From Deltaproteobacteria bacterium (lineage in GTDB: Bacteria; Desulfobacterota; Desulfuromonadia; Desulfuromonadales; Geopsychrobacteraceae), in assembly GCA_024280485.1 (NCBI GenBank), contig JAJRQB010000080.1, positions 1 to 44,950 on the forward strand: 44,950 bases of DNA, read 5' to 3'. Below are positions 18,418 to 36,993 of this stretch, one piece after another. The position numbers were made by a program, and so were the translations under genes. Below the pieces are notes generated by a model. That model made no database searches. It saw only the letters and a list, made by a program, of their open reading frames with translations, and was not told the origin of the DNA. The number at the start of each line of letters is the position of its first letter. Positions within the stretch are counted from its first letter, which is position 1.

Positions 18418-18507
18418 AGTTTTTCTCCTCACAGGGCTCAGTATCAGTTCTGACCTGTTAAGTCGCTGACAGTTACAACCCCGTTGATGCTAAACAAATT
18501 GAATTGA

Positions 18508-19173: not shown

Positions 19174-19197
19174 CGTGCTACCCAAGAACCCCGTTCA

Positions 19198-20460
19198 TCA
19201 CGCAATCAACAAACCAGGATTTTCAGCCAATTCACGAACTTTTGAGTAGAAGCGCGCAACGGGTACGCCCTCTACGGCCCGGTGGTCGTATGTCATACTA
19301 AAATCCATGATCGGGCGTACCATAATTTCACCATTGATGACTCTCGGTTGATCAAGAATTGCCCCTATTCCGACAATCAGCGATTGAGGTTGGTTCAATA
19401 TTGGCGTACCGGTCAGAGGCCCATTCAGGAAGCCGCCGACATTTGTCAGGGTAACGGTTCCACCTTCCATATCGGCTGTGGTCAGCTTCCCTTCCCTACC
19501 GCGTAGGATCAGATCTCTTGCGCATTTGCTGATTTCCACCAACGACATTTGATCTGCGTTTCTGATCACCGGCACCATCAAGTTCAACTCACCTCCGCTA
19601 CCCTGGACAGCGACAGCAACACTGACGTTGACATCTTTCCAGACCTTGATTTCCTCTCCAATCACCGAGGCGTTGAGAGAAGGTTCATAGCGAAGCGCTC
19701 GCGACATGAGATAGACCATAATATCGGTGTAAGTGACACGCACGCCCAACGATTCTTCCTGCTTTAGCAAAGCTTTTCTCAGACGAATCAATTCGGTCAT
19801 GTCAACTTCGCCCATATTGCTGACCTGGGCAGAAACAGCAAGGCTCTGCTGCATATGGTCGGCGATTGCCTTGCGGATGCCTGCAAGTGGGATCGTCTGG
19901 GCAACTCGAATGCCGTTAACCACCTCACCGTCAAATGCCGCAACAGCAAGGACATTTGCAGGTTTCGCTGTCCGAGCCTTTTCAACATCGCGCTTCACGA
20001 TCTGACCACGAGAACCGGTACCGGCAAGTGATGAGATATCCACGCCATACTGCTGGGCCAACCTCCTCGCCAGCGGAGAAGCAATGACCCGGCCACCCTT
20101 GGGCGGCGTTAGCGGTTGAAGTGCACTATCTTTTTCCTCGACGACCTCCTCAGTTTCCAGAACTGTCGCCGATGAAGATCCAGCAGGCGCCGTGATCTGG
20201 CTCGCCAGAGAGGCTAAATCTTCCTCGTTTTCTGCCAGCATGGCGATCACATGTTCAACAGGGACCGTTTCTCCATTCGGCACAACAATATGCAGATATC
20301 CTGAGCCGTCGGCTTCAACTTCGTAATTAACCTTCTCAGTCTCTATTTCCAGCAGGATCTGCCCTTTTGTTACATAATCGCCCTGACTCAGGAACCAAGA
20401 AAGAATTGTCCCCTGGCTCATTGCCATGGCGAGTTTTGGCATAATAATCTCAAGTGCCAT
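19198..20460 (-). CDS. 2-oxoacid dehydrogenase E2 (dihydrolipoyl acyltransferase), 420 aa
   Basis: This is the core acyltransferase of a pyruvate- or acetoin-type dehydrogenase complex. There is a single N-terminal lipoyl domain (residues about 1-78) with the lipoylated lysine in E-I-E-T-E-K-V-N-Y-E. An Ala/Glu-rich linker follows, then a peripheral subunit-binding domain (about 125-160; A-S-P-L-A-R-R-L-A-Q-Q-Y-G-V-D). The catalytic domain ends in the signature D-H-R-A-V-E-G, where the usual form is D-H-R-x-x-D-G. The ATG has a GGGAGG ribosome site and follows E1beta by 23 bases. Pyruvate versus acetoin or a branched-chain acid cannot be settled from sequence. Confidence 0.92.
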   Translation of the reverse strand: MALEIIMPKLAMAMSQGTILSWFLSQGDYVTKGQILLEIETEKVNYEVEADGSGYLHIVVPNGETVPVEHVIAMLAENEEDLASLASQITAPAGSSSATVLETEEVVEEKDSALQPLTPPKGGRVIASPLARRLAQQYGVDISSLAGTGSRGQIVKRDVEKARTAKPANVLAVAAFDGEVVNGIRVAQTIPLAGIRKAIADHMQQSLAVSAQVSNMGEVDMTELIRLRKALLKQEESLGVRVTYTDIMVYLMSRALRYEPSLNASVIGEEIKVWKDVNVSVAVAVQGSGGELNLMVPVIRNADQMSLVEISKCARDLILRGREGKLTTADMEGGTVTLTNVGGFLNGPLTGTPILNQPQSLIVGIGAILDQPRVINGEIMVRPIMDFSMTYDHRAVEGVPVARFYSKVRELAENPGLLIA

Positions 20461-20483
20461 TGTTCAGTTCCTCCCTTATTCCC

Positions 20484-21446
20484 TTACACGGCCACACTAC
20501 GAATGGCTGCTTCGATTTTTTCGACACTCGGCAAGACATGCTGCTCCATATAGCCACCAGGAATCGGATAGTTACCAGCGCAAACCCGCTTGATCGGCTC
20601 ATCCAGCAGAGTAAACCCTTTATCGACAACCTGCGCTGCCAATTCAGAAGCGAAGCTGCAGCGCTCAGTATCCTCATCCACAATTACCAGCCTGTTGGTC
20701 TTCTCCACCGATTTCAGAACGGCATCGAGATCGAATGGCTCCAGAGTGCGGGGATCGACAACTTCTACGCTGATCTCACCCTCCAGTTTCTTCGCAACCT
20801 CAAGGGCCAGTTGAACCATATAGGAATAGGCCACCACTGTGACATCTGTTCCCTCGCGCTTGACATCGGCAACACCGAAGGGAATCGTATAATCCTCTTC
20901 GGGAACCTCACCGGTAACGGCCATCAGCTGTTTATGCCAGAAGTACATCACCGGGTTGTTATCCCGAATGGCTGTTTTCATCAAACCCTTGGCATCGTAG
21001 GGCGTAGAAGGCACCGCAAGCTTGATACCCGGTGAATGCAGAATTATCGAAGAGGGTATTTGCGAGTGCTCGTTGGCCAGCTTCATGCCGCCACCGGCAG
21101 CGCCCATAAACACGACTGGCACATTCACTTTGCCGCCGTGCATGAAGCGCCACTGTGGAGCTTTGAGCAAAATCTCATCGGCCGCCGTGTACATAAAATC
21201 GATGAACATAAGATCGACGATGGGCCGGTAGCCAGTCATGGCTGAAGCAACCGCCGCGCCGCAGAATGCAGCTTCACAGATCGGGGTATCCAGCACACGC
21301 TGGTCACCAAAACGCTTCGCCAGTCCTTCTGAATGGGGATAGTTAGCGCCACGAAGGCTCTCTCCCATCAGATAAACCGTCTCATCCCGCTCCATCTCTT
21401 CAATAAAGGCCTCGTTAATCGCCTTGTGATACTGAATTTCTCGCAC
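20484..21446 (-). CDS. 2-oxoacid dehydrogenase E1 beta subunit, 320 aa
   Basis: This is the beta subunit of the thiamine-diphosphate-dependent E1 component. It opens with the typical R-E-I-Q-Y-H-K-A-I-N-E-A-F and contains M-G-E-S-L near residue 27, D-T-P-I-C-E-A-A-F-C-G near 54, and the C-terminal transketolase region with V-V-D-P-R-T-L-E-P-F-D near 233. The start is a GTG with GAGGTG eight bases ahead. It lies 21 bases after the E1alpha stop. The length and motif set are those of PdhB/AcoB proteins; no lesion is visible, unlike its E1alpha partner. Confidence 0.93.
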   Translation of the reverse strand: MREIQYHKAINEAFIEEMERDETVYLMGESLRGANYPHSEGLAKRFGDQRVLDTPICEAAFCGAAVASAMTGYRPIVDLMFIDFMYTAADEILLKAPQWRFMHGGKVNVPVVFMGAAGGGMKLANEHSQIPSSIILHSPGIKLAVPSTPYDAKGLMKTAIRDNNPVMYFWHKQLMAVTGEVPEEDYTIPFGVADVKREGTDVTVVAYSYMVQLALEVAKKLEGEISVEVVDPRTLEPFDLDAVLKSVEKTNRLVIVDEDTERCSFASELAAQVVDKGFTLLDEPIKRVCAGNYPIPGGYMEQHVLPSVEKIEAAIRSVAV

Positions 21447-21467
21447 GTTTCACCTCAATTTCTTGAT

Positions 21468-22444
21468 TTATTTCGCGTACAGGTAGTCATCCAGAACGGA
21501 TGGGTCGGGAGGCGAACCCGCATCGGCAAAAGCCTCTGCAGCGTCAATCTCAACCGCAATCTCCTGATCGATTCTCTCCATTTCTTTCTGGGTCAGAACG
21601 CCCTCTTTCAGCAACTTCTCCTGAAACAGGACAACCGGATCACGTTTTTTCAACTCGACATAATCGTCTTTGGTGCGATCTTCCAGATCGATCCTGTCCG
21701 GCAGACCAATAGAATGGGTGACGAAGCGCTCGGTCTTGCATTCGATCAACGATGGACCTTCACCAGCCCGAGCCCGTGCCACCGCCTTATCTACAGCTTT
21801 TGCTACGGCGACGACATCCTGTCCGTCCACCACCTCCCCGGGCATGCCATAACCAAAGGCAAGATCGGCAATATTTTCAACCGGGTGGTGATCTTTCACT
21901 GGGACATACATACTAAGCTGATTATTTTCACACACCCAGACAATGGGCAGTTTCCAGTTAGCTGCCATCAGGAAGGATTCATGCAGGGTCCCCCGATTTG
22001 AAGTCCCATCGCCAAAGCAGGAAACAACCACCTGCTGCTTTCCGTTCCACTTGGACGTCATGCCGTATCCGACGGAGATCGGGAAACCGGTCCCGAGGGT
22101 CCCGGCGAGGCCAAAAAAACCGTGTTCGGTATCGATATTGTGATAAGTAGACACCCCACCACAGGACCCTGTGCTCTTCCCACAATGTTCCGCCAGATAG
22201 TACTTAGGATCTACACCCTTGGAAATCAGGTGCGGCAGTCCGTGACCGCGAACTGCAGGAAAAACAAAGTCATCGTCGTTCAAAATGAGCAAGCCCCTAC
22301 GCCTGGAGCCTCTCCCCCCTCTGCCGGGTGCCAGAACCCTAATAGTTTCCCCAGCCCCAATCGCCTACTGAAAAGCTGATCAAACGCCCGGGTGCGAACC
22401 AGGTTGCGATAGAGCGTGAGCTTTTGTTCCTTTTTCAATCTCAT
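21468..22444 (-). pseudogene. 2-oxoacid dehydrogenase E1 alpha subunit, frameshifted near codon 54
   Basis: The gene starts at the ATG at 22444 after a GGAG ribosome site and encodes an E1alpha N-terminus (K-K-E-Q-K-L-T-L-Y-R-N-L-V-R-T-R). It then hits a TGA right after G-A-C-S-F. The remaining part continues at once in the -1 frame with N-D-D-D-F-V-F-P-A-V-R-G-H-G and the thiamine motif G-D-G-T-S-N-R-G-T-L-H-E. Adding one T to the four-T run (plus-strand A run 22282-22285) restores S-F-L-N-D-D-D and a 325-residue protein of normal length. The rest of the gene has no other lesion. It is either a recent one-base deletion or a homopolymer sequencing error; a functional start at the TTG at 22292 would drop the first 50 or so residues and is unlikely. 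Confidence 0.85.
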
Positions 22445-22593
22445 GTCTCAACTCCGTATTAAACATAGATAGATTTGCGGCAACTAGCAGCGGACACCCA
22501 GGGCATCCGCAACAAAAATGCCATGATCGGTCTTTCCAAAATCTCAAAATTCAAAACGTTAAACGCTGATGTACTGTACTGCTTCGATACAAA

Positions 22594-22612
22594 TAGCAAC
22601 ATGCATGCCGCC
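22594..22612 (-). promoter_or_regulatory. Sigma-54 promoter of the 2-oxoacid dehydrogenase operon
   Basis: The minus strand reads GGCGGCATGCATGTTGCTA, with GG and GC 12 bases apart. It is nearly identical to the promoter at 29832-29850. Confidence 0.8.
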
Positions 22613-23192: not shown

Positions 23193-24512
23193 CTACTGCG
23201 CCATCTTCTTAAACGCCTCTTCCGCACGCTCGACAACCATGTCAATATCCTCTTCCGTATGAGCAGCCGAGATACAGAATCGCAACAGAGTCAATACTCC
23301 TTGCTCTTTTAGCAGGTTACCGAACTCATTCGCCATTGGAAGACTATTTGGCTCAGACAAGCTATCCAAATGATTGACAATCTTATCCTTGTGGGTGAAG
23401 TTGAAGGTCCACGCCCCCGGGAAACCCTGCAGCAGCAGATTCGCCCCTTGTCTTTCGGCAGCGCCATCGAGTCCCCCCCTGAGACGATTTCCCAGGGCAT
23501 TGATGTGATGATAAACGGCGCCACCGTCCTTTTCCAACTCCTCGATTGTTGCCACTACGGCAGCCATCGCCATTGGATGCCCATTATAAGTCCCGCCGGC
23601 GGTCACTTCGGTACGGGTGATGACATCCATGATCTCGCGCTTGCCACAAAATACGGAGACCGGAAATCCACCGCCGACAGCCTTGCCAAAGGTCGTCATG
23701 TCGGGCGTGACACCGAAATAACCCTGAGCACTCTTGAGGCCGATCCGAAAACCGGTCAGAACTTCGTCAAAGATCAGCACTACACCATACTGATCACACA
23801 GCTGCCGGACACCTTCCAGGTAACCTGGTTCCGGCATGCAACCGGAGAAGTTGACCATCACCGGCTCCATAATGACAGCGGCAATATTATCGGCCTTGGA
23901 GGAGAATAGTTTCTCCATGGCTTCAAGATCATTCCACTCAATCATGTAATAATCGGAGAAGGCATGAGCGGCACGGCCACCGGTATTAGCGATATCTGAC
24001 AACAGATCACCCTCGCGGACAGCAGCGATCGGAACCGGGTTATCTGTGTCGGTCACGATTCCACCAATCAGGCTGTCCGTTGACCCGTTGTACTGACCAT
24101 TGAAGCGAACCACCATATTCTTACCAGTGTAGGCTCTGGCAACGCGCAAGGCATTTAAGTTCGCCTCTGTCCCTGAATTGGCAAATCGCACCAACTCGGC
24201 GCAGGCGACATGATCTACTATCTTTTGCGCTGCCCTGACCTGAAGCTCAATCGGCTCGTTGGCATAAAAACCTTTAGCCGCATCCACCATCGCGCTACGC
24301 AGGTGTTCGTTGCTGTGTCCCAAAATCGCCGGACCCATACTCAGGCTGAAGTCGAGGAACTCATTCCCGTCGGCATCCCACAAGCGGCCAGCTTCGCCCC
24401 GCGCCATGAATGTAGGATGATAGCCTTCAGATTTCTTCCAATTACTCATCACTCCGCCAGGAATAACCTTCCGGGCTGCCGCTTCAATCTGTTGTGATTT
24501 TATGTGCTTCAT
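23193..24512 (-). CDS. Class III (omega) aminotransferase, GSA-aminotransferase-like, 439 aa
   Basis: This is a PLP-dependent fold-type I enzyme of class III. F-A-N-S-G-T-E-A-N near residue 110 binds the PLP phosphate, L-I-F-D-E-V-L-T-G-F-R near 245 provides the ring-binding Asp, and the PLP lysine is in T-F-G-K-A-V-G-G-G-F near residue 275. The overall pattern is close to glutamate-1-semialdehyde aminomutase, but no heme-biosynthesis gene is nearby and the operon looks catabolic, so a role as omega-amino acid or diamine transaminase is more likely. The start is the ATG at 24512 with AAAGGTGG upstream; an in-frame GTG at 24521 overlaps the ribosome site. It is the last gene of its operon, before a strong terminator. 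Confidence 0.87.
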   Translation of the reverse strand: MKHIKSQQIEAAARKVIPGGVMSNWKKSEGYHPTFMARGEAGRLWDADGNEFLDFSLSMGPAILGHSNEHLRSAMVDAAKGFYANEPIELQVRAAQKIVDHVACAELVRFANSGTEANLNALRVARAYTGKNMVVRFNGQYNGSTDSLIGGIVTDTDNPVPIAAVREGDLLSDIANTGGRAAHAFSDYYMIEWNDLEAMEKLFSSKADNIAAVIMEPVMVNFSGCMPEPGYLEGVRQLCDQYGVVLIFDEVLTGFRIGLKSAQGYFGVTPDMTTFGKAVGGGFPVSVFCGKREIMDVITRTEVTAGGTYNGHPMAMAAVVATIEELEKDGGAVYHHINALGNRLRGGLDGAAERQGANLLLQGFPGAWTFNFTHKDKIVNHLDSLSEPNSLPMANEFGNLLKEQGVLTLLRFCISAAHTEEDIDMVVERAEEAFKKMAQ

Positions 24513-24587
24513 AGATACCACCTTTATCTTTAGTGTATTTGGTCGCGTAACCTTACGCCTGCGGAAGCACGCGAATACAAAATACTG

Positions 24588-25385
24588 CTAACAGGTCTCC
24601 CCACCATCCACGGTGAGCGTTGCACCCGTGACATAACTGGCCTCATCTGACGCCAGGAATGTGATCGCTCTGGCAACGTCATCAGGTAAAGCAAACCGCC
24701 CGAGCGGATATTCGGTAACCAGTGTCGAACGAGCCTGATCTGCAGTTTCGAAGAGGCCTTTCTTGACGGCCTCATCAATACTCCGCTCAAACATGGGGGT
24801 CTCGATGATACCAGGATTAACGGTATTGACCCGAATTCGGTAGCTTTTTGCGCCAAACTCGCGTGCCAAGGCTCGCGACAGAATTTGAAGTGCGCCCTTG
24901 GTGGCAGAGTAGATGCTTTCGTCGGCCGCCGATTTCAGTGCAGCGCCGGATGAGACGTTGATCACCGCTCCGTGCTCCTGCTCTGCCAAGGTCTCGCGAA
25001 TGAGCGGCACGGCGAGTTGGGTGCCGACAAAAACCCCGCGCAGATTGATATTAAACAACTGATCGAAGTCCTCCAGGGAGGTCGCCATGAAAGGCTTGGC
25101 TAGATGCGCACCGGCGTTGTTGACCAAGACATGAAGCCCGCCGTATATCTCACGGACGCCACCCAGAACCTCGGACCAGGATTCGGCCTCGGTGACATCA
25201 TGGCAAAAAAAGGTCACCTCACCACCTGCGGCAGAAATCTCTTGAACCACCGCACGTCCACGTTCTTCATTGCGGGCTGTGATTGCCACCCGAGCTCCGA
25301 CCGCAGCCATTTTGTATGCGGTAGCAAGCCCGACGCCCATGGTGCCGCCGGTGACTAATGCGACTTTGCCTTCAAGACAGTTCAC
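24588..25385 (-). CDS. Short-chain dehydrogenase/reductase, 265 aa
   Basis: This is a classical NAD(P)-dependent SDR. The cofactor motif T-G-G-T-M-G-V-G is at residues 12-19, N-N-A-G-A near residue 88, and the catalytic Ser, Tyr and Lys are in V-S-S-G-A-A-L and Y-S-A-T-K near residues 143-162. The C-terminus V-D-G-G-E-T-C is typical. The start is a GTG with GAGGAGG at the right distance. Substrate is unknown; in this operon it could oxidise or reduce a hydroxy or semialdehyde intermediate formed by the aminotransferase that follows 75 bases downstream. It lies directly after a degraded SDR fragment and may be the surviving member of a pair. Confidence 0.9.
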   Translation of the reverse strand: MNCLEGKVALVTGGTMGVGLATAYKMAAVGARVAITARNEERGRAVVQEISAAGGEVTFFCHDVTEAESWSEVLGGVREIYGGLHVLVNNAGAHLAKPFMATSLEDFDQLFNINLRGVFVGTQLAVPLIRETLAEQEHGAVINVSSGAALKSAADESIYSATKGALQILSRALAREFGAKSYRIRVNTVNPGIIETPMFERSIDEAVKKGLFETADQARSTLVTEYPLGRFALPDDVARAITFLASDEASYVTGATLTVDGGETC

Positions 25386-25425
25386 GAGTCTGCCTCCTCT
25401 TCACCCAAGAGCAGGTCTAACAGCT

Positions 25426-25611
25426 TCATGGATGAACCGCATGTCCAGCCGCCATCGCATCTTTGACGCTCTGCTCAGAGGAGACATCGACATAAACGAA
25501 TTCAGCTCCTATCTCCTGTGCTGCAGATGAAGCGTCCTTCAGATCTGCGATCATCACCATAGCGCCGGTAATAAATGCTTTTTGGGCCTCAAGAGAAAAC
25601 ATAAGCGCCAT
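25426..25611 (-). pseudogene. Truncated SDR fragment lacking the nucleotide-binding glycine motif
   Basis: The frame begins M-A-L-M-F-S-L-E-A-Q-K-A-F-I-T-G-A and then jumps to M-V-M-I-A-D-L-K-D-A-S-S-A-A. In a normal SDR about 20 residues with the glycine-rich G-x-x-x-G-I-G motif and first helix stand between these two segments. After V-Y-V-D-V-S-S-E-Q-S-V-K-D-A-M-A the frame stops at residue 61, before the N-N-A-G and catalytic parts. The start overlaps the stop of the ureohydrolase gene (TGATG), so the gene was once translationally coupled in the operon. Function is not expected. Confidence 0.8.
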
Positions 25612-26792
25612 CAATCCTTTTCATCCCAGTCCACGTTCTCCCCGACGTAACCGCCAGAGGTGGACATATTATTGGGCCAGGTGGTCGGTTTCCACTCACC
25701 GCTATTGAGCCGGACCTTGGTGTCGACCAGCATGCAGAGGTACTCGAAGCCGAGGTTGACAATGTTGGCCGCGGTGGTGCTGTTGGGATCGTGTGCAGGT
25801 GCGTATTCGACGATATTCGCGCCGATCAGGTTCTTGCCCTTGAAGGCACGGCTGATGATGCGGTAGTCCTGCCAACGCAGACCGAAGCCATCCATGGTGG
25901 ACAGACCGCCGCCGCTCTCCACAGGGTCAAGTCCATCGAGGTCACATTCGATGATGCAGGGCGCATCACCCACCCGCTCTGCGACCATATCGGCATAGTA
26001 CTGCGGCCCCTTCTCGAAAACCTGCAGCGGACTGACGATAGTGATGCCCATCTCCTGAGCGGTCATCCGCCCGGAAAGCGCACTGGAACCCATCTCCTTG
26101 ATGCCGAACATCAGGAACTTCTCGGGATCGATAATCCCTTGAGCGAAAGCCCGGGTCAGGAAATTTGCGTGTTCCCGCTCTTCCGTTGTGAAGCCTGCAA
26201 CATCCTTCATGGTTAAAGCGTCCGGATGACCGTCAAACAGGACTCCTCCCATCGGTTCTCCGTCAAAGTATTTTTCGGAAATACGAGCGCAGGCAGGCTC
26301 AAAGGCATGAGCCGTACTATGCTCGCCGCCGAAATTAAGGAGGAGATTGCCGGCATCCACGGCCTTCATCAGCCAGGATTCCAAATGGTCGATGGCCTCG
26401 GAATAGTTCATCGTCCATACGTCAATATCGCCCATATCGATGATCCGGGCCATCTCCAGCGGCGCCATAGCCCACTCATGATGTAGCGGGATCGGGTAGC
26501 GTGATCGAAAGCGCAGATAAGCGGGAGCATGACGCATGTTTCCCGTTTCGCTCAGGGTCCCGTAGTCGATCCCGCAACCGGAGATAGCAATATCGGCGTT
26601 GGCGAAATCGTGAGAGAACGGCGTCTTGTAGAAACCCATCCAACTCACATTTTGCGTGCTGATCCAACTGATCTTTTCGTCGGCCATGCGCTTGATGAAT
26701 TTGCGAATGGCCTCTGGCTGTTCTTTCATGTTCGAAAGGTTTTCATTGATATGCCGGTACTTTTTCAGTTTTTCCTCAGATATTTTGGCCAC
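25611..26792 (-). CDS. Ureohydrolase (agmatinase/arginase-family) protein, 393 aa
   Basis: Members of this manganese hydrolase family cleave guanidino compounds (agmatine, guanidinobutyrate, arginine) to urea plus an amine; a few cleave formimino groups. The metal-binding set is visible: N-F-G-G-E-H-S near residue 157, F-D-G-H-P-D-A near 190 (usual D-A-H-x-D) and E-C-D-L-D-G-L-D-P near 290. All six metal ligands therefore seem present. It is longer than most agmatinases (about 300), because of N-terminal and internal additions. The start is a GTG after AAAGGA. It is third in the operon after the M20 and M24 proteins, but a 359-base gap with a gene remnant separates it from the M24 gene. The exact guanidino substrate is unknown. 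Confidence 0.85.
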   Translation of the reverse strand: MAKISEEKLKKYRHINENLSNMKEQPEAIRKFIKRMADEKISWISTQNVSWMGFYKTPFSHDFANADIAISGCGIDYGTLSETGNMRHAPAYLRFRSRYPIPLHHEWAMAPLEMARIIDMGDIDVWTMNYSEAIDHLESWLMKAVDAGNLLLNFGGEHSTAHAFEPACARISEKYFDGEPMGGVLFDGHPDALTMKDVAGFTTEEREHANFLTRAFAQGIIDPEKFLMFGIKEMGSSALSGRMTAQEMGITIVSPLQVFEKGPQYYADMVAERVGDAPCIIECDLDGLDPVESGGGLSTMDGFGLRWQDYRIISRAFKGKNLIGANIVEYAPAHDPNSTTAANIVNLGFEYLCMLVDTKVRLNSGEWKPTTWPNNMSTSGGYVGENVDWDEKD

Positions 26793-26929
26793 GGTTCGTC
26801 CTTTCCTTCGATTGAATTGCCCCTAGTGTCCCGGGGAAGACCAGCATGCCTAAAACATAACTAAACGAGTCAAGATCCAAACAAAATTAATGGATGAGAA
26901 AAATCAGAGGAGGAAATCAGAGCCAACAA

Positions 26930-27060
26930 TCCGTGAACGTTGGTCTGCCGAGCAAGACTACTTAAAGAGCTAAAAATATTCAGCTCGGCTTTCGATTTGT
27001 TGAAACCCCATCGTGGGTTCCAAAGACCTTTAATGCTTGAATTAATGGCCGCCATTCCTT
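26930..27060 (-). pseudogene. Remnant matching the 3' end and downstream flank of the sigma-54 activator gene
   Basis: On the minus strand the segment encodes A-I-N-S-S-I-K-G-L-W-N-P, against [13 protein letters not shown]-stop at the end of the activator gene (30247-31764). The homology continues past the activator stop: both have AACCC-N5/6-GGGTT, then a run ending CGAAA-x-C-x-GAGCT-x-AAT, then a CAAC/GTTG hairpin. By eye about three quarters of bases match over 80-100 positions. The stop codon is lost in this copy. It is a duplicated and decayed piece. Confidence 0.7.
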
Positions 27061-27084
27061 GTGGTTCGCGTAGAAAATGTGGTA

Positions 27085-27125
27085 GTGGAAGTGCCCGCAT
27101 GTCTCGCTTCACTGAGCACTTCCAC
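27085..27125. repeat. Perfect 10-bp inverted repeat after the M24 gene
   Basis: GTGGAAGTGC (27085-27094) is exactly complementary to GCACTTCCAC (27116-27125). It lies 27 bases after the M24 stop on the minus strand. There is no U run, so it may be an RNA-processing or protective hairpin rather than a terminator. Confidence 0.55.
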
Positions 27126-27151
27126 CTCAAGCCAACGGCGCCTACGGTGCT

Positions 27152-28447
27152 TTACCAGTTCACATCCTGCGGTACTCGCACCAGCCACGGGAACTCGCCG
27201 GTGCTGAGCAGCTCGCCACCCTGCTCAGTTACCCGCACGGTTTCGCTTAACTCAATGGCCCATTTTCCAGGGGAATACACATAGGTGATGGTGTGGAACA
27301 CCATATTGGGGACAAGCACAATGTCGCAACCCTCAATAAATGCCAACGGCGCATCGGGGCACCAGGAGGGTGGCATGCTGAAGCCCACCGAGTAGCCGAA
27401 GCAGTCACCGGGCAAGACATCATCGGGCAACTGATAAGACTCCAGTATATGCCGTGAGGCCTCAGCCACATCAGTACACAGAACACCGGGTTTCATCATG
27501 GCGATAGTGTTTTTCATCACCGCCTGCAGCGCCTCATCGGCCTTTTTCTGTACAGCAGTGGGCTCGCCCAGAATGGCGGTGCGCATCTGCGGGCAGTTGT
27601 AGTTATTGTGAACACCTGCATGCTCGACATAGACGGTATCCCCCGTCTGGATAACATGGCGTTTCCAGGGGATATGGGGTGCAAAGCCGGATTTATCGCC
27701 AACGGCTACCAGACCCTGGTTGCCGATCGATTCTCCGCCAGCGGCAAAGGTGGCGCCATAAGCCAAGCCAGCGATCTCCGCCTCGGTCATGCCAGGCTTC
27801 AGTGCCTTGAAGGCCGCCTTGTGGCCGGCCACAGTATAGAGACCCGCCTGCCTCAGTGCCTCGATTTCCAGTTCGGTTTTAACAGTACGGGCTTCATTAA
27901 CCAGCCCCGATGCGTCCACAAAGCGGGCCTTGGTCAAGCCTTTCTTGAGGGTCTCATAGTCGCGGATGGTCATGGAGCGCCCATTCCCCCAGGTGGCCAT
28001 ATCCAGTTCCACTCCAATAGCCAGATTACCCTGCCCATACTTATTGACACAGGCCATCAGTTGTTCGCCGGGGGCCACATGTTCACCTCGTTCCGGGCCA
28101 ACCATATATTCGTAGTTTTCCAGATAGGTGAAGTATTGGGCGCAGGTGAGTTCGATATCGGCGCCGATCATCCAGGGCTCCCCATTGAGAGGCAGGCCCA
28201 GATACACCCAGCAACCGGGGAAGATTGTATCGTACCCGGTCAGGTAACCAATATTAACCGCCTCGTTCACTAACAATAGCTCAATGCCTCTCTCGCGCAT
28301 CATCTCGCGCACACGATCCTGGCGGAGCTGAAATTCCTCCCGGGGAAAGGGCTTTTCTCCATTTTTCAGGCTGCTGTCAGAAGCCTGAAGAATTCGTTGG
28401 AATTCGCCCTCAAGCAAGGCCTTTGGTCTGTCTGTGATTGGATTCAT
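27152..28447 (-). CDS. M24-family protein of the creatinase / ectoine-hydrolase type, 431 aa
   Basis: The protein has the creatinase N-terminal domain (about 1-190) and the pita-bread M24 domain (about 200-420). The five metal ligands of the aminopeptidases of this fold are mostly absent: the D-x-G/S-D pair is replaced in Y-V-E-H-A-G-V-H-N-N-Y-N-C-P-Q-M-R-T, the G-H-G position reads G-Y-S-V-G-F-S-M-P-P-S-W, and the E-P Glu is gone. This pattern is that of the metal-independent branch (creatinase, ectoine hydrolase DoeA/EutD), which hydrolyses C-N bonds in amidine-like compounds. Neighbouring M20, ureohydrolase and aminotransferase genes suggest catabolism of a guanidino compound or an ectoine-like compound. 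GGAG at 8 bases supports the ATG at 28447. Confidence 0.85.
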   Translation of the reverse strand: MNPITDRPKALLEGEFQRILQASDSSLKNGEKPFPREEFQLRQDRVREMMRERGIELLLVNEAVNIGYLTGYDTIFPGCWVYLGLPLNGEPWMIGADIELTCAQYFTYLENYEYMVGPERGEHVAPGEQLMACVNKYGQGNLAIGVELDMATWGNGRSMTIRDYETLKKGLTKARFVDASGLVNEARTVKTELEIEALRQAGLYTVAGHKAAFKALKPGMTEAEIAGLAYGATFAAGGESIGNQGLVAVGDKSGFAPHIPWKRHVIQTGDTVYVEHAGVHNNYNCPQMRTAILGEPTAVQKKADEALQAVMKNTIAMMKPGVLCTDVAEASRHILESYQLPDDVLPGDCFGYSVGFSMPPSWCPDAPLAFIEGCDIVLVPNMVFHTITYVYSPGKWAIELSETVRVTEQGGELLSTGEFPWLVRVPQDVNW

Positions 28448-28516
28448 CGTGTACTCCTAATAGTGGGAAGAATTACCTGAAACGAACTTTTTCTTTACTG
28501 GGAATTCGGGCTGACT

Positions 28517-29641
28517 TTACGAAAGTTCGCACCAGCGCATTGCAATCTCTTCGTAGAGATCCGCCGCCTCTTCAATCTTGTCGACCAAGCAATACTCATC
28601 GGTCTGGTGTGCCTGTTCTTTGATGCCGGGACCGATAATTACTGTCGGCGGATAACCGCAGCCCTGCGTCAGCGCCGATGCATCGGTAAAATAAGGTGCG
28701 CCCCGACGTTCGGGTCTGGTGCCAAGTCGCGGTTCTACGATGTCGTAGACAGTCTGTACCCAGACGTTCTCCGCATCCGTGAGCACAGCGTCGGCGCGAA
28801 CTTCGGGAATAATCTCTACCTCCTCCCCAAACAGCTTGGAAAGTTCGGCGAGAATATCGATGTGGGAGTGACCGGGAATCGTGCGTATATCAACGCTGCA
28901 CTCGGCACGATCCGGTACCGAGTTACGGTTAATGCCACCGTGAAAACTACTGACGCAAAGGGATGTGGTGCCGAGCAGTTTATCGGGGGCGATATTAAAG
29001 CGATGCCGCTCCAGTTTTGCTACTGCACGTGCCAGCTTGTAGACAGCATTGTCCCCCTCCTCGGGCATGGAACCGTGTGCGGTCTTGCCGGTGGTGACAA
29101 GTCTAAGCCAAAGTGCTCCCCGATGCCCCAGAATCGGATAGTTGGAAGTGGGCTCGGCAATCACTAGGGCACCGGCCCGGTCCAGCTCCCCTTCGCTCGC
29201 CAGATGGTGAGTGCCCAGGCAACCATGCTCCTCGCCTGCCGCCATGATGATAACAATGTCCGCATGACCCCGTGGACGGGTAGCCATTCGCAGCCCCATT
29301 TCCACACATGCGGCAATCCCGGCCTTCATATCGCTGGCACCACGACCATAGAGTTTGCCGTTGAGTATCGCGCCACCAAAAGGCTCCACCGACCAGGGTT
29401 TGGCACCCAGTGGCACCACATCTATATGCCCACCAAAATAGATCGGCAACTTACCCCCCTCACCCTTCAAGCGAGCCACGGCGGTGGTGCGTCCCTCCTC
29501 GAATTCATGGTAAGAAACCTCAAAGCCAGCCTCTCCAAGAAGAGCACCCAAATAGTGAGCGCATTCTCGCTCCCGAGTCATCGTATCAATGCGAACAATC
29601 TCCTGAGAGATTTTTGTCGCTGTGATTCTTTCTGGCATCAT
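28517..29641 (-). CDS. M20-family deacylase/peptidase (ArgE/DapE-like), 374 aa
   Basis: This is a dinuclear zinc hydrolase related to acetylornithine deacetylase and succinyl-diaminopimelate desuccinylase. Metal ligands are visible: His in G-G-H-I-D-V-V-P near residue 71, the bridging Asp in G-A-S-D-M-K-A-G near 103, the catalytic Glu pair in A-A-G-E-E-H-G near 137, Glu/Asp in I-A-E-P-T near 162, and the C-terminal His in Q-A-H-Q-T-D-E near 350. All needed residues are present. It is the first gene of an operon with M24, ureohydrolase, SDR and aminotransferase proteins, so an N-acyl amino or guanidino compound is a likely substrate. It is read from a sigma-54 promoter (29832-29850) that is a copy of the one ahead of the 2-oxoacid dehydrogenase operon. 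Start 29641 or 29638 (tandem ATGs). Confidence 0.9.
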   Translation of the reverse strand: MMPERITATKISQEIVRIDTMTRERECAHYLGALLGEAGFEVSYHEFEEGRTTAVARLKGEGGKLPIYFGGHIDVVPLGAKPWSVEPFGGAILNGKLYGRGASDMKAGIAACVEMGLRMATRPRGHADIVIIMAAGEEHGCLGTHHLASEGELDRAGALVIAEPTSNYPILGHRGALWLRLVTTGKTAHGSMPEEGDNAVYKLARAVAKLERHRFNIAPDKLLGTTSLCVSSFHGGINRNSVPDRAECSVDIRTIPGHSHIDILAELSKLFGEEVEIIPEVRADAVLTDAENVWVQTVYDIVEPRLGTRPERRGAPYFTDASALTQGCGYPPTVIIGPGIKEQAHQTDEYCLVDKIEEAADLYEEIAMRWCELS

Positions 29642-29714: not shown

Positions 29715-29812
29715 ATTTCCCAAGCCCCTATCGCCGACTGAAAAGATGATCAAACATACGACTGCGAATCAGGTTTCGAGAACCTGGGCTTTTGATCCAA
29801 GTTCAACCTCAT
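29715..29812 (-). pseudogene. Remnant copy of the first ~33 codons of the E1 alpha gene
   Basis: Starting at the ATG at 29812 the minus strand aligns with the E1alpha 5' end from 22444: both begin ATGAG-x-TTGAA, share CAAAAG, and later TTTGATCA-x-CTTTTCAGT-x-GGCGAT-x-GGGGCT. The copy has a stop near codon 21 and small indels, so it is not coding. Relative to the original, about 130 bases between promoter and start codon are missing. Confidence 0.78.
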
Positions 29813-29831
29813 GCCCTGCACCACCAAGCAA

Positions 29832-29850
29832 CAGCAATATGCATACCGCC
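29832..29850 (-). promoter_or_regulatory. Sigma-54 promoter of the M20 operon
   Basis: The minus strand reads GGCGGTATGCATATTGCTG, with GG and GC 12 bases apart; it is a near copy of the promoter at 22594-22612. Confidence 0.78.
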
Positions 29851-29999
29851 TTCTTTCAACCTTAAACCTTCAGCACCTAGTATTCACCATACACGCAATT
29901 ATCTTCAATAAAATCAGCATGTTATATATCAACAAATGATCTCATCGCACTAAAACAAAAGTATATTTATCAAGGGGAAAGTCCACCAAAATCCATCAT

Positions 30000-30039
30000 T
30001 GATGACGTTCAGCATCGGTGTTGATTTACGCTGTCATTC
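30000..30039. promoter_or_regulatory. Tandem activator dyad for the M20 operon
   Basis: TGATGACGTTCAGCATCG (30000-30017), spacer GTGT, then TGATTTACGCTGTCATTC (30022-30039). The distance from the -24 GG is 152 bp, identical to the copy at 22761. Confidence 0.7.
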
Positions 30040-30246
30040 AAGAATCGCTAAACCCAAGCGACATCAGAAATATCCATTTTTGTATCAAGGGAATGATCCA
30101 GAGGGAAAGAACTTGCGGGAAGAGTGGAATAAAAGAACTACACGGGAAACCAGAATCAACAACCTGCAGATTGTTGGATCAGGTGAGACAAACTAGAGGA
30201 AAAGCTGAAAAGGATTAAGCTCTGTTTTCGGTGTGTTAAAACCCTG

Positions 30247-31764
30247 TCAAGGGTTCCACTGGCCTTCTTCTTTGAGCCGATTTATCTTCTTAACCACCGT
30301 CGACTGGTCCAGCTCCAGGACCTCACCAATCTTACGGGTGGTCTTATATTTACGGTAAGCCATCTCAAGCAACTGCTTCTCGAGCTGCAGGGTCGCCTGT
30401 TTTAACGGCACGATTCCCTGCAAACTAAAAGCTTTATTAGCCCCCGGATTAACAACCTCACGGACATGCAGATCGGTGATAACAGTTTCCTGGCAAGTAA
30501 TAACCAGCCGCTCTACTGCATTTTCAAGTTCTCGCACATTACCGGGCCAGTCGTGAGCACTCAAAAGATCGTAGGCCGACTGCGACATCTGCCGGTCGGT
30601 TCCGTACTTCGAATTGAACTTTTCCAGAAAATGACGAACAAACAGGGGAATATCACCAACCCGCTGGCGTAGCGACGGAATCTGTATCGGAACCACGTTG
30701 AGACGATAGTACAGGTCTTCGCGAAAGCCCCCCTCCTCCACAAGTTTTTTCAGATCCCTGTTGGTCGCTGCAATAACCCGGGCGTTGACCTCGGTTGGCG
30801 TCGAACTCCCCACCTTGTAAATTTTGTTCCCCTGAAGAACATGAAGTAGCTTGACCTGCAGATCCATGGGCATCTCGCCGATTTCGTCCAGGAACACGGT
30901 CCCATTATTGGCGATCTCGAACATGCCTTTTTTGCCCTTGGCACTCGCCCCGGTAAACGCCCCCGACACGTAGCCAAAAAGCTCGGACTCCATCAGATCC
31001 TTAGGGATGGCGCCACAATTCACCGGAATCAACGGCCCCTCTCTGCGACGGCTTATCTGGTGGATCATTTCAGCGAAAACACCCTTACCAACCCCCGTCT
31101 CACCAAGAAGCAGGATGGTGACCTCGGTATCCGCGACATGATTGATCAGGTTGATAATTTTATCCATTTCAGGATTGTTACCCCTGACGAACCCCTCGGC
31201 CAGGACCTTCGTGCGGAGTAACTCGCCCCGGTACCATCCTAGGATATCCTCTGTACTCTTCAATTGCTCATTGAGCTTTTCTATTTCGGTGATATCCCGG
31301 GCGATGTTAATAATCCTGAACAGGTTCCCGTTTTCATCGTGCATGGGAATCCCTGTGACCACCAATCGACGTCCCGACAAAGTGGTCTGGACCACGGTCT
31401 CAGTCTTATTGCTCTGGAGGACCTTAACCGTACTGGAATTCGAAAAGATGCCACGCTCTTCTAACTCCCGCGCAGTTATGCCAAGAAAAGACTCTGAGGG
31501 GACCCCGAAAACCTCCTCACAGTTTTTGCTCACCATCAAAAAGCGACCATTGCCATCCGCGATAGTTATCTGGTCGAAGGTCTGGTCTAGAATCATCTTC
31601 AGCTCTTCATAGTGCTGTTGATAGGCAAGCAATCTATCTGGCATTTCGGAGGGAGCAGTTTTTGTAGTCACGGAAGGCACCTCACTACGGCAAGACCGAA
31701 TATTCAAATCAATGTGTTCGAAAAAAACTATTCGTATAGGATTAATCAAATTAAGCATTATCAT
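30247..31764 (-). CDS. PAS-AAA+-Fis sigma-54-dependent transcriptional activator, up to 505 aa
   Basis: This is a bacterial enhancer-binding protein. A single PAS domain (about 50-165) ends in R-D-I-T-E-I-E. The AAA+ domain has Walker A G-E-T-G-V-G-K-G at 221-228, the sigma-54-contacting loop G-A-F-T-G-A at 268-273 and Walker B F-L-D-E-I-G at 291-296. A Fis-type helix-turn-helix occupies the last 50 residues ([14 protein letters not shown]). There is no receiver domain, so it probably senses a ligand or redox state through PAS, like RocR- or PrdR-type regulators of amino-acid catabolism. The start is uncertain: ATG 31764 lacks a ribosome site, while a GTG at 31671 has GAGG ahead of it. It is the only sigma-54 activator in the window and the likely ligand of the dyads listed here (inference). 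Confidence 0.93.
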
Positions 31765-31988: not shown

Positions 31989-33407
31989 CTACAAAAGTTC
32001 TTCAAAACCTTCTGTGCTGTATGCTCTACCAGCCCTTTTTTCTTCAAGTGCTTTATTTAATGCTGAATGTCGCTCTCTTGTCATAGGATTACTGAGTGCA
32101 ATAATTATCGAGATTGACACCGGGATTGCGGTTCCTACGCCAAACAAGATCTTCAACCATTCGAGAGTCTCAGGGGATTGAACTGAAAGTTTGGCATCAT
32201 ACCCGATGTGTTCCAGCGCAAGACCGACAACAAGCAAAGCAATGGCAGCACTGACTTTTTGTATCAAAGAGACGACACCGTAGAACATACCTTCCCTACG
32301 CTTTCCAACTTTAAATTCGTCAACCTCAACACAGTCCGGAACTTTCGACCAGATCAACTGCCAGTAGCCACCAGTCCCGACTCCAACCAGCACAGCAAAA
32401 GATTCGATCACAAGCCATCCGCTGTCGGGGGTAAATATTAAAATCGTATAGGTAAACATTGAGCCGGCGAATAAAGACATAACAATGGCCCAACTAACTT
32501 TTTTCGACATATGCCTTGACATGAAGTTGATAAGCGGGACCCCCAACAACCCGCTGATCGATACGGACATCAGGAATACTGTCAGTTTGAATTCATCGAA
32601 CTGCATGTAATTTAACAAATAATATATTGCTGTTGCGTTCATGATTGAAACGCCCAGGACAACAGACACGAACATCCCGGTCACATAACGAAAAGGCTTT
32701 ACATTAAAGGGCTCCACAAGCAAGGATTTCAAGTTGAATTTATGGATTTCACCAACTTCCTTCAACTCGTAACCTTTCGTATATTTAACAACCACAACCA
32801 GAGAGGCCACAACTAAAATCCCGTAAAGCAAACCAGTGACTGACCAACCAATGTTCCAGTTGCCACCGAACACGCCCGACAAATAGGCAACCAGAATAAA
32901 CATTGCATTACTTGCGATCAGGTTAATTGTGAAGAAAGCACCACGAAACGCACTTAAAGAGCTTCGCTCATCATAGTCCTGCGTCATTTCAGTTCCAAGA
33001 GCCGTATATGGAACATCAATGCATGTTTGGAAGGTGTAGAAAGCTAGAATAACAACGACGAAATAAATCTTTTGCCAGAGGTCTCCCAGGAAAGAAACAT
33101 TAGTAAAAATAAGCATTGAAGTAATCCCGAGCGGAATCGCAAACCAAACAATAAAGGGGATCCTCCTGCCTTTTTCAGGATCTCTCTTATCGGATAAATA
33201 CCCAATTGTCGGGTCTGTTACAGCATCCCAAAGCGTTCCCAACGCGATAACCATACCGGCAAAAGCAGGGCTAAAACCAACATAATCAGTAAAAAATATC
33301 ATTCCCCAAAAGATAAAATTGTTATATACCATTTGAGAGCCAAAACCACCGACTCCATAACCAATCTTAGCTCGCAAGGGCAATTTTTCAGTTCTTACAT
33401 GCTCCAT
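31989..33407 (-). CDS. GPH-family (MelB-like) cation symporter 2, 472 aa
   Basis: This is a 12-helix major-facilitator protein of the glycoside-pentoside-hexuronide:cation symporter family. The first loop signature D-A-V-T-D-P-T-I-G-Y-L-S-D near residue 60 contains the Asp residues used for cation binding, followed by R-R-I-P-F-I. A second family motif, R-R-E-G-M-F-Y-G, lies near residue 373. It is paralogous to the protein encoded just upstream (33549-35042), and the two share termini as well as core. No sugar-metabolism gene is nearby, so the true substrate may be an organic acid, a peptide-like compound or whatever the M20/M24 operon degrades. AAGGAG precedes the ATG. Confidence 0.88.
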   Translation of the reverse strand: MEHVRTEKLPLRAKIGYGVGGFGSQMVYNNFIFWGMIFFTDYVGFSPAFAGMVIALGTLWDAVTDPTIGYLSDKRDPEKGRRIPFIVWFAIPLGITSMLIFTNVSFLGDLWQKIYFVVVILAFYTFQTCIDVPYTALGTEMTQDYDERSSLSAFRGAFFTINLIASNAMFILVAYLSGVFGGNWNIGWSVTGLLYGILVVASLVVVVKYTKGYELKEVGEIHKFNLKSLLVEPFNVKPFRYVTGMFVSVVLGVSIMNATAIYYLLNYMQFDEFKLTVFLMSVSISGLLGVPLINFMSRHMSKKVSWAIVMSLFAGSMFTYTILIFTPDSGWLVIESFAVLVGVGTGGYWQLIWSKVPDCVEVDEFKVGKRREGMFYGVVSLIQKVSAAIALLVVGLALEHIGYDAKLSVQSPETLEWLKILFGVGTAIPVSISIIIALSNPMTRERHSALNKALEEKRAGRAYSTEGFEELL

Positions 33408-33548: not shown

Positions 33549-35042
33549 TCAATCATCACCCATTTCAGATCTATCGGATACCTGTTTGGTTTCATCAGAA
33601 TAAACCTCGGCCACAACCAGGTCTGAATGATTGAGAAGCGAGCGGAAGCCATCGATCGCGTATGGTTTCTGCGCGTTTTTCAACTGAATTGCCTCGCAGA
33701 GTGCCGCATGATTATTGCGGGTCAGTGGATAGAAGTAGCCGATGCCCAAGGTAATTGCCAGCGGAACGACCTGCCCATACACCCACAGATTATTGATCCC
33801 CTGCAAAGTTGGCTGGGATAACTCCGTATCCCCCACGTATCCAACCCTGGTCAGAAGCCAACCGCAGACAAAATAACCGATCGCCATGGCAAACTTCTGA
33901 ACAAAAGTCACGCAACTGTAGTAGAGCCCTTCGCGCCGATGTCCAGTCCGAAACTCATCCAATTCGATACAGTCCGGGATCATGGCCCATGACAACTGGT
34001 ATTGAGCTGTGATTCCCATGGCAAGAAAAATTGTAAACGCAACGACTCCCCAATACATGTCCGGGCTGTCCAGGATATAGAGCGGAAAGATGAATGCACT
34101 GAGTGCCCAAGCTAACATGCTGACATTCCAGGTTTTTTTCTTTGAAGTCCGGTGAGCCATAAAATCGAGGATAGGGACAAAAGCGATGCTAAAAATCCAG
34201 AAAAAGGCCAGGATTGAAGTCAACTGGGCATCGCTCATCTGCATGTTCTGCATCAGCCAGTAGATGGTCACGACATTACTGAACGCCTGTGCAACTGTAG
34301 ACATGGCAAACATGGCGGCGATAAAAACAAACGGCTTGTTCTTGAAGACGTCGAGATAGTCCTTATAGCGGGTCCGTTGTACATTCTCGATCTCCTTTAG
34401 TTCATAACCTCGCGTAGCTCGCCAACCGATTAAAATGAAAACCGTCGACAGTATGGCCAGAATCCCTACGGAGACTGACCAGCCAACTTTAATATTGCCG
34501 AAAAGTTCCCCGAAAAATCCGGCAAACAAGAGCATTCCTGAGCCGACAACCAGACCGGCGACATTGCCAAAGAAGTTCCGATAGCTGTTCAGGCTGCTGC
34601 GCTCATCGTAACACTTGGTCATTTCAGCGCCGAGGGCCGTGTAGGGGATATCGAGCAGCGTATGCGCGGTCTTATAGGCAAGGATCATCACCGTGAAGTA
34701 AATCATTTTAGCCGTGGGCCCGAAGCCGAAGTCGGTGTAGAGCAGCCAGAGGACGATACCGAAAAAGAACGCGTTGAACAGTAGAATCGGGCGCCGGCGA
34801 CCTTTTTGAGGGTCACGATTATCTGAATACATCCCGACTATCGGATCGGTCACAGCATCCCAGAAGGTACTCAATGCAGTAACTATCCCTGCAAACGCAG
34901 CGGTCAAAAACACTACGTCCGTGAAAAAGTACATGCTCCAGGATGCAAATAGCGAGTAGCCGACAAATTCTGCAAATTGGGGGGCACCGTATCCAATCTT
35001 CACTCTTCTTGGCAGGCTCTGCCGGACTCCCTCAATCATCAT
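33549..35042 (-). CDS. GPH-family (MelB-like) cation symporter 1, 497 aa
   Basis: This is a second 12-helix GPH symporter, with D-A-V-T-D-P-I-V-G-M-Y-S-D near residue 62 and R-R-E-G-L-Y-Y-S near 375. It is followed 141 bases downstream by its paralogue in the same direction, and both probably belong to one transcript ending at the terminator at 31926-31952. A -24/-12 promoter (35115-35132) and an upstream dyad (35283-35322) place it in the same predicted regulon as the catabolic operons. The start could be any of two adjacent ATGs (35042, 35039) preceded by AGGGAG. A gene duplication with different substrate preference is the simplest explanation of the pair. Confidence 0.88.
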   Translation of the reverse strand: MMIEGVRQSLPRRVKIGYGAPQFAEFVGYSLFASWSMYFFTDVVFLTAAFAGIVTALSTFWDAVTDPIVGMYSDNRDPQKGRRRPILLFNAFFFGIVLWLLYTDFGFGPTAKMIYFTVMILAYKTAHTLLDIPYTALGAEMTKCYDERSSLNSYRNFFGNVAGLVVGSGMLLFAGFFGELFGNIKVGWSVSVGILAILSTVFILIGWRATRGYELKEIENVQRTRYKDYLDVFKNKPFVFIAAMFAMSTVAQAFSNVVTIYWLMQNMQMSDAQLTSILAFFWIFSIAFVPILDFMAHRTSKKKTWNVSMLAWALSAFIFPLYILDSPDMYWGVVAFTIFLAMGITAQYQLSWAMIPDCIELDEFRTGHRREGLYYSCVTFVQKFAMAIGYFVCGWLLTRVGYVGDTELSQPTLQGINNLWVYGQVVPLAITLGIGYFYPLTRNNHAALCEAIQLKNAQKPYAIDGFRSLLNHSDLVVAEVYSDETKQVSDRSEMGDD

Positions 35043-35114: not shown

Positions 35115-35132
35115 AAGCAAGCAACATGCCTT
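35115..35132 (-). promoter_or_regulatory. Sigma-54 promoter of the symporter genes
   Basis: The minus strand reads AAGGCATGTTGCTTGCTT, with GG and GC 12 bases apart. Confidence 0.75.
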
Positions 35133-35282: not shown

Positions 35283-35322
35283 GTCGGCAAACAATAATCA
35301 CCCTTGATGCAGATTGTCATCA
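35283..35322. promoter_or_regulatory. Tandem activator dyad for the symporter genes (inverted orientation)
   Basis: TGATGCAGATTGTCATCA (35305-35322) differs at only two positions from the dyad of the 2-oxoacid operon read on the opposite strand. The weaker partner, beginning TGATTATTG on the minus strand, follows with the same 4-base spacer. Here the element is flipped relative to the gene, as enhancer sites allow. It lies about 175 bp from the -24 GG. Confidence 0.7.
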
Positions 35323-36924: not shown

Positions 36925-36993
36925 CTCGATCTCCTTTTTATATTTAAAACAATATTGCTGTACTCTTTAGAGAAAACACTCTCAAACTCTGGT

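Follow-up and report, generated by a model that had tools for sequence, protein, structure and literature searches.

A candidate guanidino-compound cassette of unusual composition in a predicted sigma-54-type catabolic island of a Geopsychrobacteraceae bacterium

To our knowledge, few bacterial routes for guanidino compounds beyond arginine derivatives have been worked out. Among the described systems closest to the locus reported here, ectoine degradation by the doeABCD route employs a hydrolase, a deacetylase and a transaminase in series, with DoeB belonging to the M14 family and DoeA resembling creatinase, a fellow M24-family member (PMC3187862). A nickel chaperone, MetAB, has been described for metformin hydrolase (PMC11271267), and the AmeABCD quartet of a monoterpene island consists of DUF1302, DUF1329, COG4447 and RND proteins, deletion of which lowers monoterpene tolerance (PMC6394551). 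In this study, we examined a cassette of genes at positions 23193 to 29641 of a 44,950-nucleotide stretch (contig JAJRQB010000080.1, assembly GCA_024280485.1; referred to as the window) from a deltaproteobacterium of the Geopsychrobacteraceae (Desulfuromonadales), a relative of Geopsychrobacter, whose members are anaerobes of sediments. The cassette combines an M24 hydrolase with an arginase-family ureohydrolase, and an earlier note on this DNA had suggested that it could degrade a guanidino- or ectoine-like compound. No pathway with this combination was named in the titles and abstracts found in the open-licence literature. With about even confidence, we read the cassette as the part that sets substrate specificity, in the middle of a sigma-54-type catabolic island acting on what would be a guanidino (or amidino) compound.

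The span given in the earlier note was correct, running from the stop codon of the aminotransferase to the start codon of the M20 gene with everything on the minus strand, and holds the following features (SDR, short-chain dehydrogenase/reductase; aa, amino acids; AF2, AlphaFold2).

28517 to 29641, minus strand: M20 metallo-deacylase of the ArgE/DapE family, 374 aa (PF01546/PF07687; TIGR01910)
27152 to 28447, minus strand: M24-family hydrolase, metal-free DoeA-like group, 431 aa (PF00557, PF01321; tree; best PDB relative 6twk)
25611 to 26792, minus strand: arginase-family ureohydrolase with six metal ligands complete, 393 aa (PF00491; ligand alignment; AF2 model; tree)
about 25429 to 25605, minus strand: relic of a second SDR (by-eye alignment to an SDR of contig C132; NCBIfam SDR model)
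24588 to 25385, minus strand: intact SDR oxidoreductase, 265 aa (PF13561/PF00106; TGGTMGVG and YSATK motifs)
23193 to 24521, minus strand: class III aminotransferase, glutamate-1-semialdehyde-aminomutase-like, 442 aa (PF00202)

The five intact frames shared one orientation and had a GC content at third codon positions (GC3) of 0.58 to 0.68, inside the window's range. Most of the enzyme names proposed in the earlier note were borne out. The M20 protein matched Peptidase_M20 and M20_dimer in Pfam, carried five M20 motifs and scored 220.3 bits with the ArgE/DapE family model TIGR01910 (cut-off, 217.6); the M24 protein kept 0 of 5 metal ligands when aligned to the genome's own M24 aminopeptidase; the ureohydrolase had 6 of 6; and the aminotransferase matched PF00202. 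The plural "SDRs" held for one intact gene, the second being a truncated relic.

The evidence favouring a guanidino substrate, a suggestion of the earlier note, was the complete set of ureohydrolase ligands, a structural model closest to guanidinopropionase and the presence of four further ureohydrolases whose neighbours are SDRs or class III aminotransferases. PF00491 was matched at 129.2 bits (gathering cut-off, 22), and His158, Asp187, His189, Asp191, Asp284 and Asp286, which we take to correspond to the arginase metal ligands, were conserved in 34, 34, 34, 34, 33 and 34 of 34 aligned homologues, respectively. The AF2 model (mean predicted local distance difference test [pLDDT] value of 90.3) matched guanidinopropionase 3niq best (27% identity), followed by Escherichia coli agmatinase and a Nitrospira guanidinase. 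The protein shared the fold and the six ligands of the guanidinopropionase, guanidinobutyrase and agmatinase group but differed in its low identity (about 27%), a longer loop after DxHxD and an N-terminal stretch of about 53 residues not covered by the match. It also fell below the family cut-offs (70.5 versus 174.3 bits for agmatinase TIGR01230 and 35.8 versus 227.6 bits for arginase) and formed a clade of its own with one Desulfobacterales protein. In a tree of 67 of 82 rows, from which near-identical sequences had been removed, this sister protein (locus L021; 47% identity) was joined to the window protein with support of 100/99, the pair sitting on a long stem in a tree for which the program warned of long branches. 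L021 holds an adjacent arginase-family pair. The nickel-dependent metformin hydrolase MetCaCb/MfmAB and such paired proteins belong to the same superfamily as the window ureohydrolase, which differs in being single and having complete ligands; no nickel chaperone was present among the window genes searched with Pfam. The earlier note had regarded placement among proteins of unrelated known substrates as telling against its proposal; neither the M24 protein nor the ureohydrolase fell in a clade holding a member of known substrate.

Five ureohydrolases from four clades were detected at an E value of ≤1e-10 in the 4.1 Mb of this genome: the window protein, the protein of contig C47 and one of the two proteins of C132 each represent a clade, and the second C132 protein shares the fourth clade with the C178 protein. 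Apparent internal stops in the paralogues proved to be the terminal stop codons of open reading frames (ORFs), and read-through was rejected. At the same threshold, 58 of 59 other relatives had no match, and the only positive genomes were this one and a second of the same genus (G396); in the class of the genome carrying L021, that genome alone among 291 had a match at ≤1e-45. The other four ureohydrolases of the genome were neighboured by SDRs and major facilitator superfamily (MFS) proteins (two in locus L011), an aminotransferase and an SDR (L012), and an aminotransferase (L013, on C47). The L013 protein was close to guanidinobutyrase (523 bits) and exceeded the agmatinase cut-off (207.4 versus 174.3 bits), and its neighbouring aminotransferase is likewise of class III. 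The ends of C47 (L013 1-587) and C132 (L130 9411-9997) had a 587-bp stretch in common (91% identical); the guanidinobutyrase-like locus may adjoin the gene cluster of C132, or a repeat may have broken the assembly. The absence of urease from the earlier description extended to the whole genome (assembly 96% complete), in which there were 0 matches to urease alpha (PF00449) and no urea carboxylase above the cut-off, and urea from the cassette is therefore probably excreted.

The M20 protein was the only match of its kind in the genome at ≤1e-10. Its five metal motifs, the lysine region of the aminotransferase and the SDR motifs are those that we take to be typical of these families. The intact SDR and the one encoded in the C178 cluster shared 53% identity. 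In the relic, the Gly-rich loop was gone and a stop followed after about 60 residues, as judged by eye against the intact C132 SDR (94084-94851); there was no Pfam match, and one NCBIfam SDR model matched at an E value of 1.5e-4. The aminotransferase scored 328 bits against a HemL (TIGR00713) cut-off of 527.3 and likewise did not reach the GntE cut-off. Other homologues of it exist in the genome, for example, on C11 at 37% identity, and a protein encoded in locus L044 was 62% identical.

When one genome per species was scanned, 331 ureohydrolase relatives were recovered, the best 80 of which were examined, several of these loci being cut by contig ends. Profile detection was applied to non-overlapping ORFs of at least 150 aa and recognised the ureohydrolase itself at 73 of the 80 loci; the counts are lower bounds. 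Most neighbours in L021 to L117, including those given as look-alikes below, and the E2, LipB and E3 genes of the window were named by sequence only. A class III aminotransferase lay near the ureohydrolase in 15 of 80 loci (13 by profile and, detected by tblastn alone, L044 and L089) and Ldh_2 in 10, while M20 proteins were of the DapE/ArgE type in 2 and of the carbamoylase type in 4 by profile plus L026 by tblastn. As SDRs, MFS proteins and aminotransferases are common genes and the counts lack a background rate, these linkages are suggestive only. The L044 aminotransferase was accompanied by E2, E3, SDRs, an MFS protein and a ureohydrolase. A related cluster recurring in marine Gammaproteobacteria combined a ureohydrolase with SDRs, Ldh_2 and MFS proteins; Pfam detected a pyridoxal phosphate (PLP) decarboxylase there in L026, and look-alikes were present in L025 and L038. 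In another marine locus, L042, the ureohydrolase had a neighbour from the dimethylarginine hydrolase/arginine deiminase families. The ureohydrolases of L025, L026, L038, L040, L042 and L067 (marine Gammaproteobacteria and a Sphingorhabdus) had Asp in place of the His of their relatives' HG motif. L027 (2783-11071) encodes a class III aminotransferase, along with two short microcompartment-shell-like ORFs, near the ureohydrolase and an M24 protein that keeps its metal ligands. Searches of plasmids by tblastn with the M24 protein and the ureohydrolase matched 749 and 330 records, and none of the 12 neighbourhoods inspected (10 around M24 matches and 2 around ureohydrolase matches) held the cassette.

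The marine loci bear on a different reading, in which acylated arginine, arginine opines or arginine peptides would be degraded, the M24 and M20 proteins serving as peptidase or deacylase, the ureohydrolase being arginase- or agmatinase-like and the aminotransferase acting on ornithine- or putrescine-like amines. The occurrence of marine ureohydrolase relatives with a PLP decarboxylase and class III aminotransferases fits an arginine-to-putrescine route, and the M20 protein lies above the ArgE/DapE cut-off. However, M24 peptidases require metal ligands, all five of which are missing here, the ureohydrolase scored far below the arginase and agmatinase cut-offs, and no amino-acid decarboxylase was present among the window genes searched with Pfam. 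We regard degradation of an arginine derivative as unlikely, albeit deserving of consideration.

The guanidino reading draws further on the surroundings of the cassette, which comprise the following genes.

30247 to 31764, minus strand: PAS and sigma-54 activator, PrdR-like (PF00158, PF13426; NCBIfam PrdR 415.6 bits, cut-off 795)
31989 to 33407, minus strand: GPH-family symporter 1 (PF13347; TIGR00792 228.3 bits, slightly below the cut-off of 231.35)
33549 to 35042, minus strand: GPH-like (MFS_2) symporter 2, or GPH2 (PF13347)
35470 to 42044, minus strand: Ame-type quartet of DUF1329, DUF1302, MMPL/RND and YCF48-like proteins (Pfam DUF1302, DUF1329, YCF48/BNR, MMPL)
17020 to 22447, minus strand: 2-oxoacid dehydrogenase E3, LipB, E2, E1-beta and E1-alpha (E1-alpha and E1-beta by Pfam)
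42659 to 44557, plus strand: aldehyde ferredoxin oxidoreductase (AOR; PF02730 on the first part)

A large glutamate dehydrogenase gene was also present (11841-14843). The adjacent DUF1302, DUF1329, COG4447-like and RND genes gave an AmeABCD-type composition, in which we take YCF48 to be equivalent to COG4447. Compared by family composition only, the quartet resembled AmeABCD of Castellaniella defragrans in placing DUF1302, DUF1329, photosystem II assembly-factor-like and RND proteins within a catabolic island and differed from it in having a ureohydrolase cassette as its neighbour and in occurring twice in the genome. The genome has a second island built in the same way, with homologous outer modules and other ureohydrolases in the middle. 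In the 80- to 115-kb region of C132, homologues of the dehydrogenase (E1-alpha, 51%; E1-beta, 62%; E2, 47%; and E3, 80% identity) and of the quartet (YCF48, 59%; MMPL, 71%; DUF1302, 51%; and DUF1329, 59%) were detected, with a different middle consisting of two ureohydrolases, SDRs, two Ldh_2 proteins, an MFS protein and a glyoxalase-family protein, and with a module order unlike that of the window. C178 carried a third set (a carbamoylase-type M20 protein, LipA, a ureohydrolase, an aminotransferase and an SDR). A search of the genome for small-subunit rRNA gave 0 matches.

Promoter-like sites suggested that the island may be under shared control. A general -24/-12 pattern, derived from what we assume to be the sigma-54 consensus and allowing at most one mismatch, matched the window 7 times versus a mean of 2.56 in shuffled sequences, a count reached in 1 of 100 shuffles. 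All 7 sites were intergenic and lay 74 to 250 bp upstream of a same-strand gene start (FadJ, glutamate dehydrogenase, E1-alpha, M20, GPH2, YCF48 and AOR). For random intergenic positions, the probability was 0.00014 for 7 of 7 within 250 bp, 0.0008 for 7 of 7 within 300 bp and 0.0016 for 6 of 7 within 200 bp. The sites of the island and the associated putative activator sites are as follows.

29833 to 29848, minus strand: -24/-12-like site upstream of M20
22595 to 22610: -24/-12-like site of E1-alpha
35116 to 35131: -24/-12-like site of GPH2
42128 to 42143: -24/-12-like site of the quartet
42556 to 42571: -24/-12-like site of AOR
30000 to 30016, plus strand: putative activator site TGATGAC-N5-GCATC
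35306 to 35322: TGATGAC-N5-GCATC near GPH2

The word TGATGAC/GTCATCA occurred 157 to 237 bp upstream of 5 of the 7 sites. Ten copies of this word were present in the window, all four intergenic ones in those upstream regions and six inside genes. The 4.1 Mb of the genome held 7 copies of the extended word TGATGAC-N5-GCATC, including 3 in the window, versus 1 for a reversed control; the word was derived from these three copies, so this comparison shows rarity only. These matches suggest that the cassette seems to belong to a predicted sigma-54-type regulon with the GPH symporters, the RND quartet, the lipoyl dehydrogenase and AOR, and the PAS and sigma-54 activator is the likely regulator of the island. 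The C132 and C178 stretches had one promoter match altogether, which is near chance, and the two superclusters therefore appear to be regulated differently.

The promoter region of the cassette includes the following feature.

29716 to 30041, minus strand: diverged, decayed copy of the E1-alpha upstream region and about the first 33 E1-alpha codons, heading the cassette

This copy of about 330 bp, located before M20, was detected by blastn (E 3e-20 over 100 nucleotides [nt] at 79% and 3e-13 over 225 nt at 68%) and now holds stops. By alignment and blastn, the promoter of the cassette is a diverged duplicate of the one preceding E1-alpha, and the cassette sits between the two E1-alpha head copies, which are direct repeats. 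On the simplest reading, the head of the E1 operon was duplicated and the cassette, once between the copies, took over one promoter; the order of these events would follow from the present arrangement. In addition to the SDR relic, two genes have interrupted frames. E1-alpha (22280-22447) contains a frameshift close to 22283, where there is a short run of T, and this could be a sequencing error or a genuine lesion; AOR has an in-frame TAG at 43325-43327 in an otherwise open frame.

The direct repeats and the three broken genes in the window, together with the uniqueness of the full set among the loci examined, are what would be expected if unrelated genes had been joined by the E1-alpha head duplication and were decaying with no common pathway. 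Against such chance assembly stand the five intact same-strand frames with GC3 typical of the window, the promoter type common to the rest of the island and the homologous supercluster with other ureohydrolases, and we consider it improbable.

Pfam assigned Peptidase_M24 and Creatinase_N domains to the M24 protein. At the five metal-ligand positions (D, D, H, E and E in the genome's aminopeptidase, as picked by motifs that we presume to mark them), the window protein had E275, P286, Y352, V379 and S401, the alignment being uncertain at V379. DoeA of Phaeobacter and Salinivibrio had E, P and Y, then Q or R, and then T, and E275, P286 and Y352 are common to both. The best PDB relative was ectoine hydrolase 6twk (E 1e-39). 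DoeA was also the top NCBIfam model, yet the score was 191.1 bits versus the TIGR02993 equivalog cut-off of 613. In a tree of 26 rows, which omitted only two partial copies, the protein fell in a 19-row group containing DoeA and relatives (support, 100/99) and formed a clade with proteins from L017, L120 and L128 (4 rows; 100/98) on an end branch of 1.39; two of these clade-mates were rhizobial plasmid proteins. An 8-row clade with the Phaeobacter and Salinivibrio DoeA proteins (100/100) excluded it, and a 20-row tree lacking L003, L101, L102, L103 and L106 placed it alike. A DoeA identity was rejected on the basis of this clade and the score. A creatinase identity was not supported either, since a profile of eight non-DoeA relatives gave 281 bits for DoeA structures and 135 bits for the best creatinase (1chm), under several prolidases. 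The earlier assignment to a creatinase/ectoine-hydrolase type stands only as membership of the metal-free, DoeA-like group. The only other M24 match in the genome was aminopeptidase-like (24% identity). The protein is rare: 1 of 394 other genomes in the phylum sample had a match at ≤1e-40, and in the phylum of the genome carrying L044, 1 of 398 had one at ≤1e-48 with no cassette around it. A scan of genome contigs for close relatives of the M24 protein gave 15 stretches, 0 of which were confirmed. An AF2 model from a three-row alignment (mean pLDDT, 40.6) was not used. DoeA-like genes stood beside tripartite ATP-independent periplasmic (TRAP)-transporter-like ORFs in metagenome-assembled genomes of the Desulfobacterales (L113) and a spirochaete (L115).

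These results bear on whether the cassette is a variant ectoine or hydroxyectoine operon, with the M24 protein as ectoine hydrolase, the M20 protein as deacetylase and the aminotransferase acting on diaminobutyrate. The cassette resembles doeABCD and DoeA/EutD in its metal-free M24 protein with the same E, P and Y and in the grouping of hydrolase, deacylase and class III aminotransferase, the three activities that act in series on ectoine; DoeA is its best solved relative, and L113 has an M20-like gene near its DoeA-like gene. It differs in that the M24 protein occupies a separate clade, an M20 protein stands in place of the M14 deacylase, and a ureohydrolase, which has no role in that route, an SDR and a lipoyl dehydrogenase are extra; the window genes run against Pfam included no DoeB, TRAP transporter or EutABC. 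We judge an ectoine substrate, the other half of the earlier proposal, to be very improbable. A creatine-type route, in which an M24 creatinase would release urea with the ureohydrolase as a side enzyme, is suggested by the similarity of DoeA to creatinase but can practically be dismissed, given the creatinase score under several prolidases and the lack of sarcosine oxidase among the Pfam-run window genes.

In the proposed guanidino route, the compound would be imported by the GPH symporters, import being the presumed direction of transport. The metal-free M24 protein would, like DoeA, hydrolyse a C-N bond, by opening a cyclic amidine or guanidine ring or by amide cleavage; the M20 protein would take off an acyl group and the ureohydrolase would release urea. 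The SDR would oxidise a hydroxyl and the aminotransferase take the freed amine, glutamate being recycled by glutamate dehydrogenase, and the carbon skeleton would be finished by the lipoyl 2-oxoacid dehydrogenase, AOR and beta-oxidation genes. The Ame-type quartet would deal with a lipophilic substrate or intermediate and, by analogy with the monoterpene island, may serve a lipophilic guanidino compound. We infer the reaction order and the role of the regulator in this route. A bolder version, in which the M24 protein opens the ring of a lipophilic or cyclic guanidine natural product and the new-clade ureohydrolase removes urea, the two belonging to an exchangeable middle module in a standard exporter and lipoyl dehydrogenase island of which this genome has two or more versions with different ureohydrolases, would be a new route and is speculative.

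Several observations weigh against a guanidino island. None of the cassette enzymes reached the cut-off of a family with a known guanidino substrate, and no Rfam family, and hence no known guanidine riboswitch, was detected in the window at the gathering threshold. Of the conserved linkage by which the earlier note would have judged its proposal, partial sets recurred elsewhere, and the full set was found in 0 of the 80 loci (ureohydrolase flanks examined with profiles and tblastn); the evidence linking M24 and M20 with the ureohydrolase therefore comes from a single locus. An M24 gene lay near the ureohydrolase in 2 of 80 loci (L021 and L027), both of a different, metal-keeping type. The promoter-like sites are consensus matches only, their placement within 100 bp of gene starts did not reach significance (3 of 7; P = 0.08), and TGATGAC was missing at the sites of FadJ and glutamate dehydrogenase. 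Finally, given the SDR relic, the E1-alpha frameshift and the AOR stop codon, part of the island may not function, or there may be errors in the assembly.

Of the new findings, we regard as most useful that transport, cassette, dehydrogenase and AOR genes lie behind one promoter type and that the genome has a second island of like build. If the guanidino reading is right, the two superclusters would supply defined enzymes and promoters for finding the substrates. They would also provide a handle on deep ureohydrolase branches with repeated occurrences among marine Gammaproteobacteria, Vibrio, a spirochaete and Desulfobacterota, and the known repertoire of metal-free M24 hydrolases would be widened.

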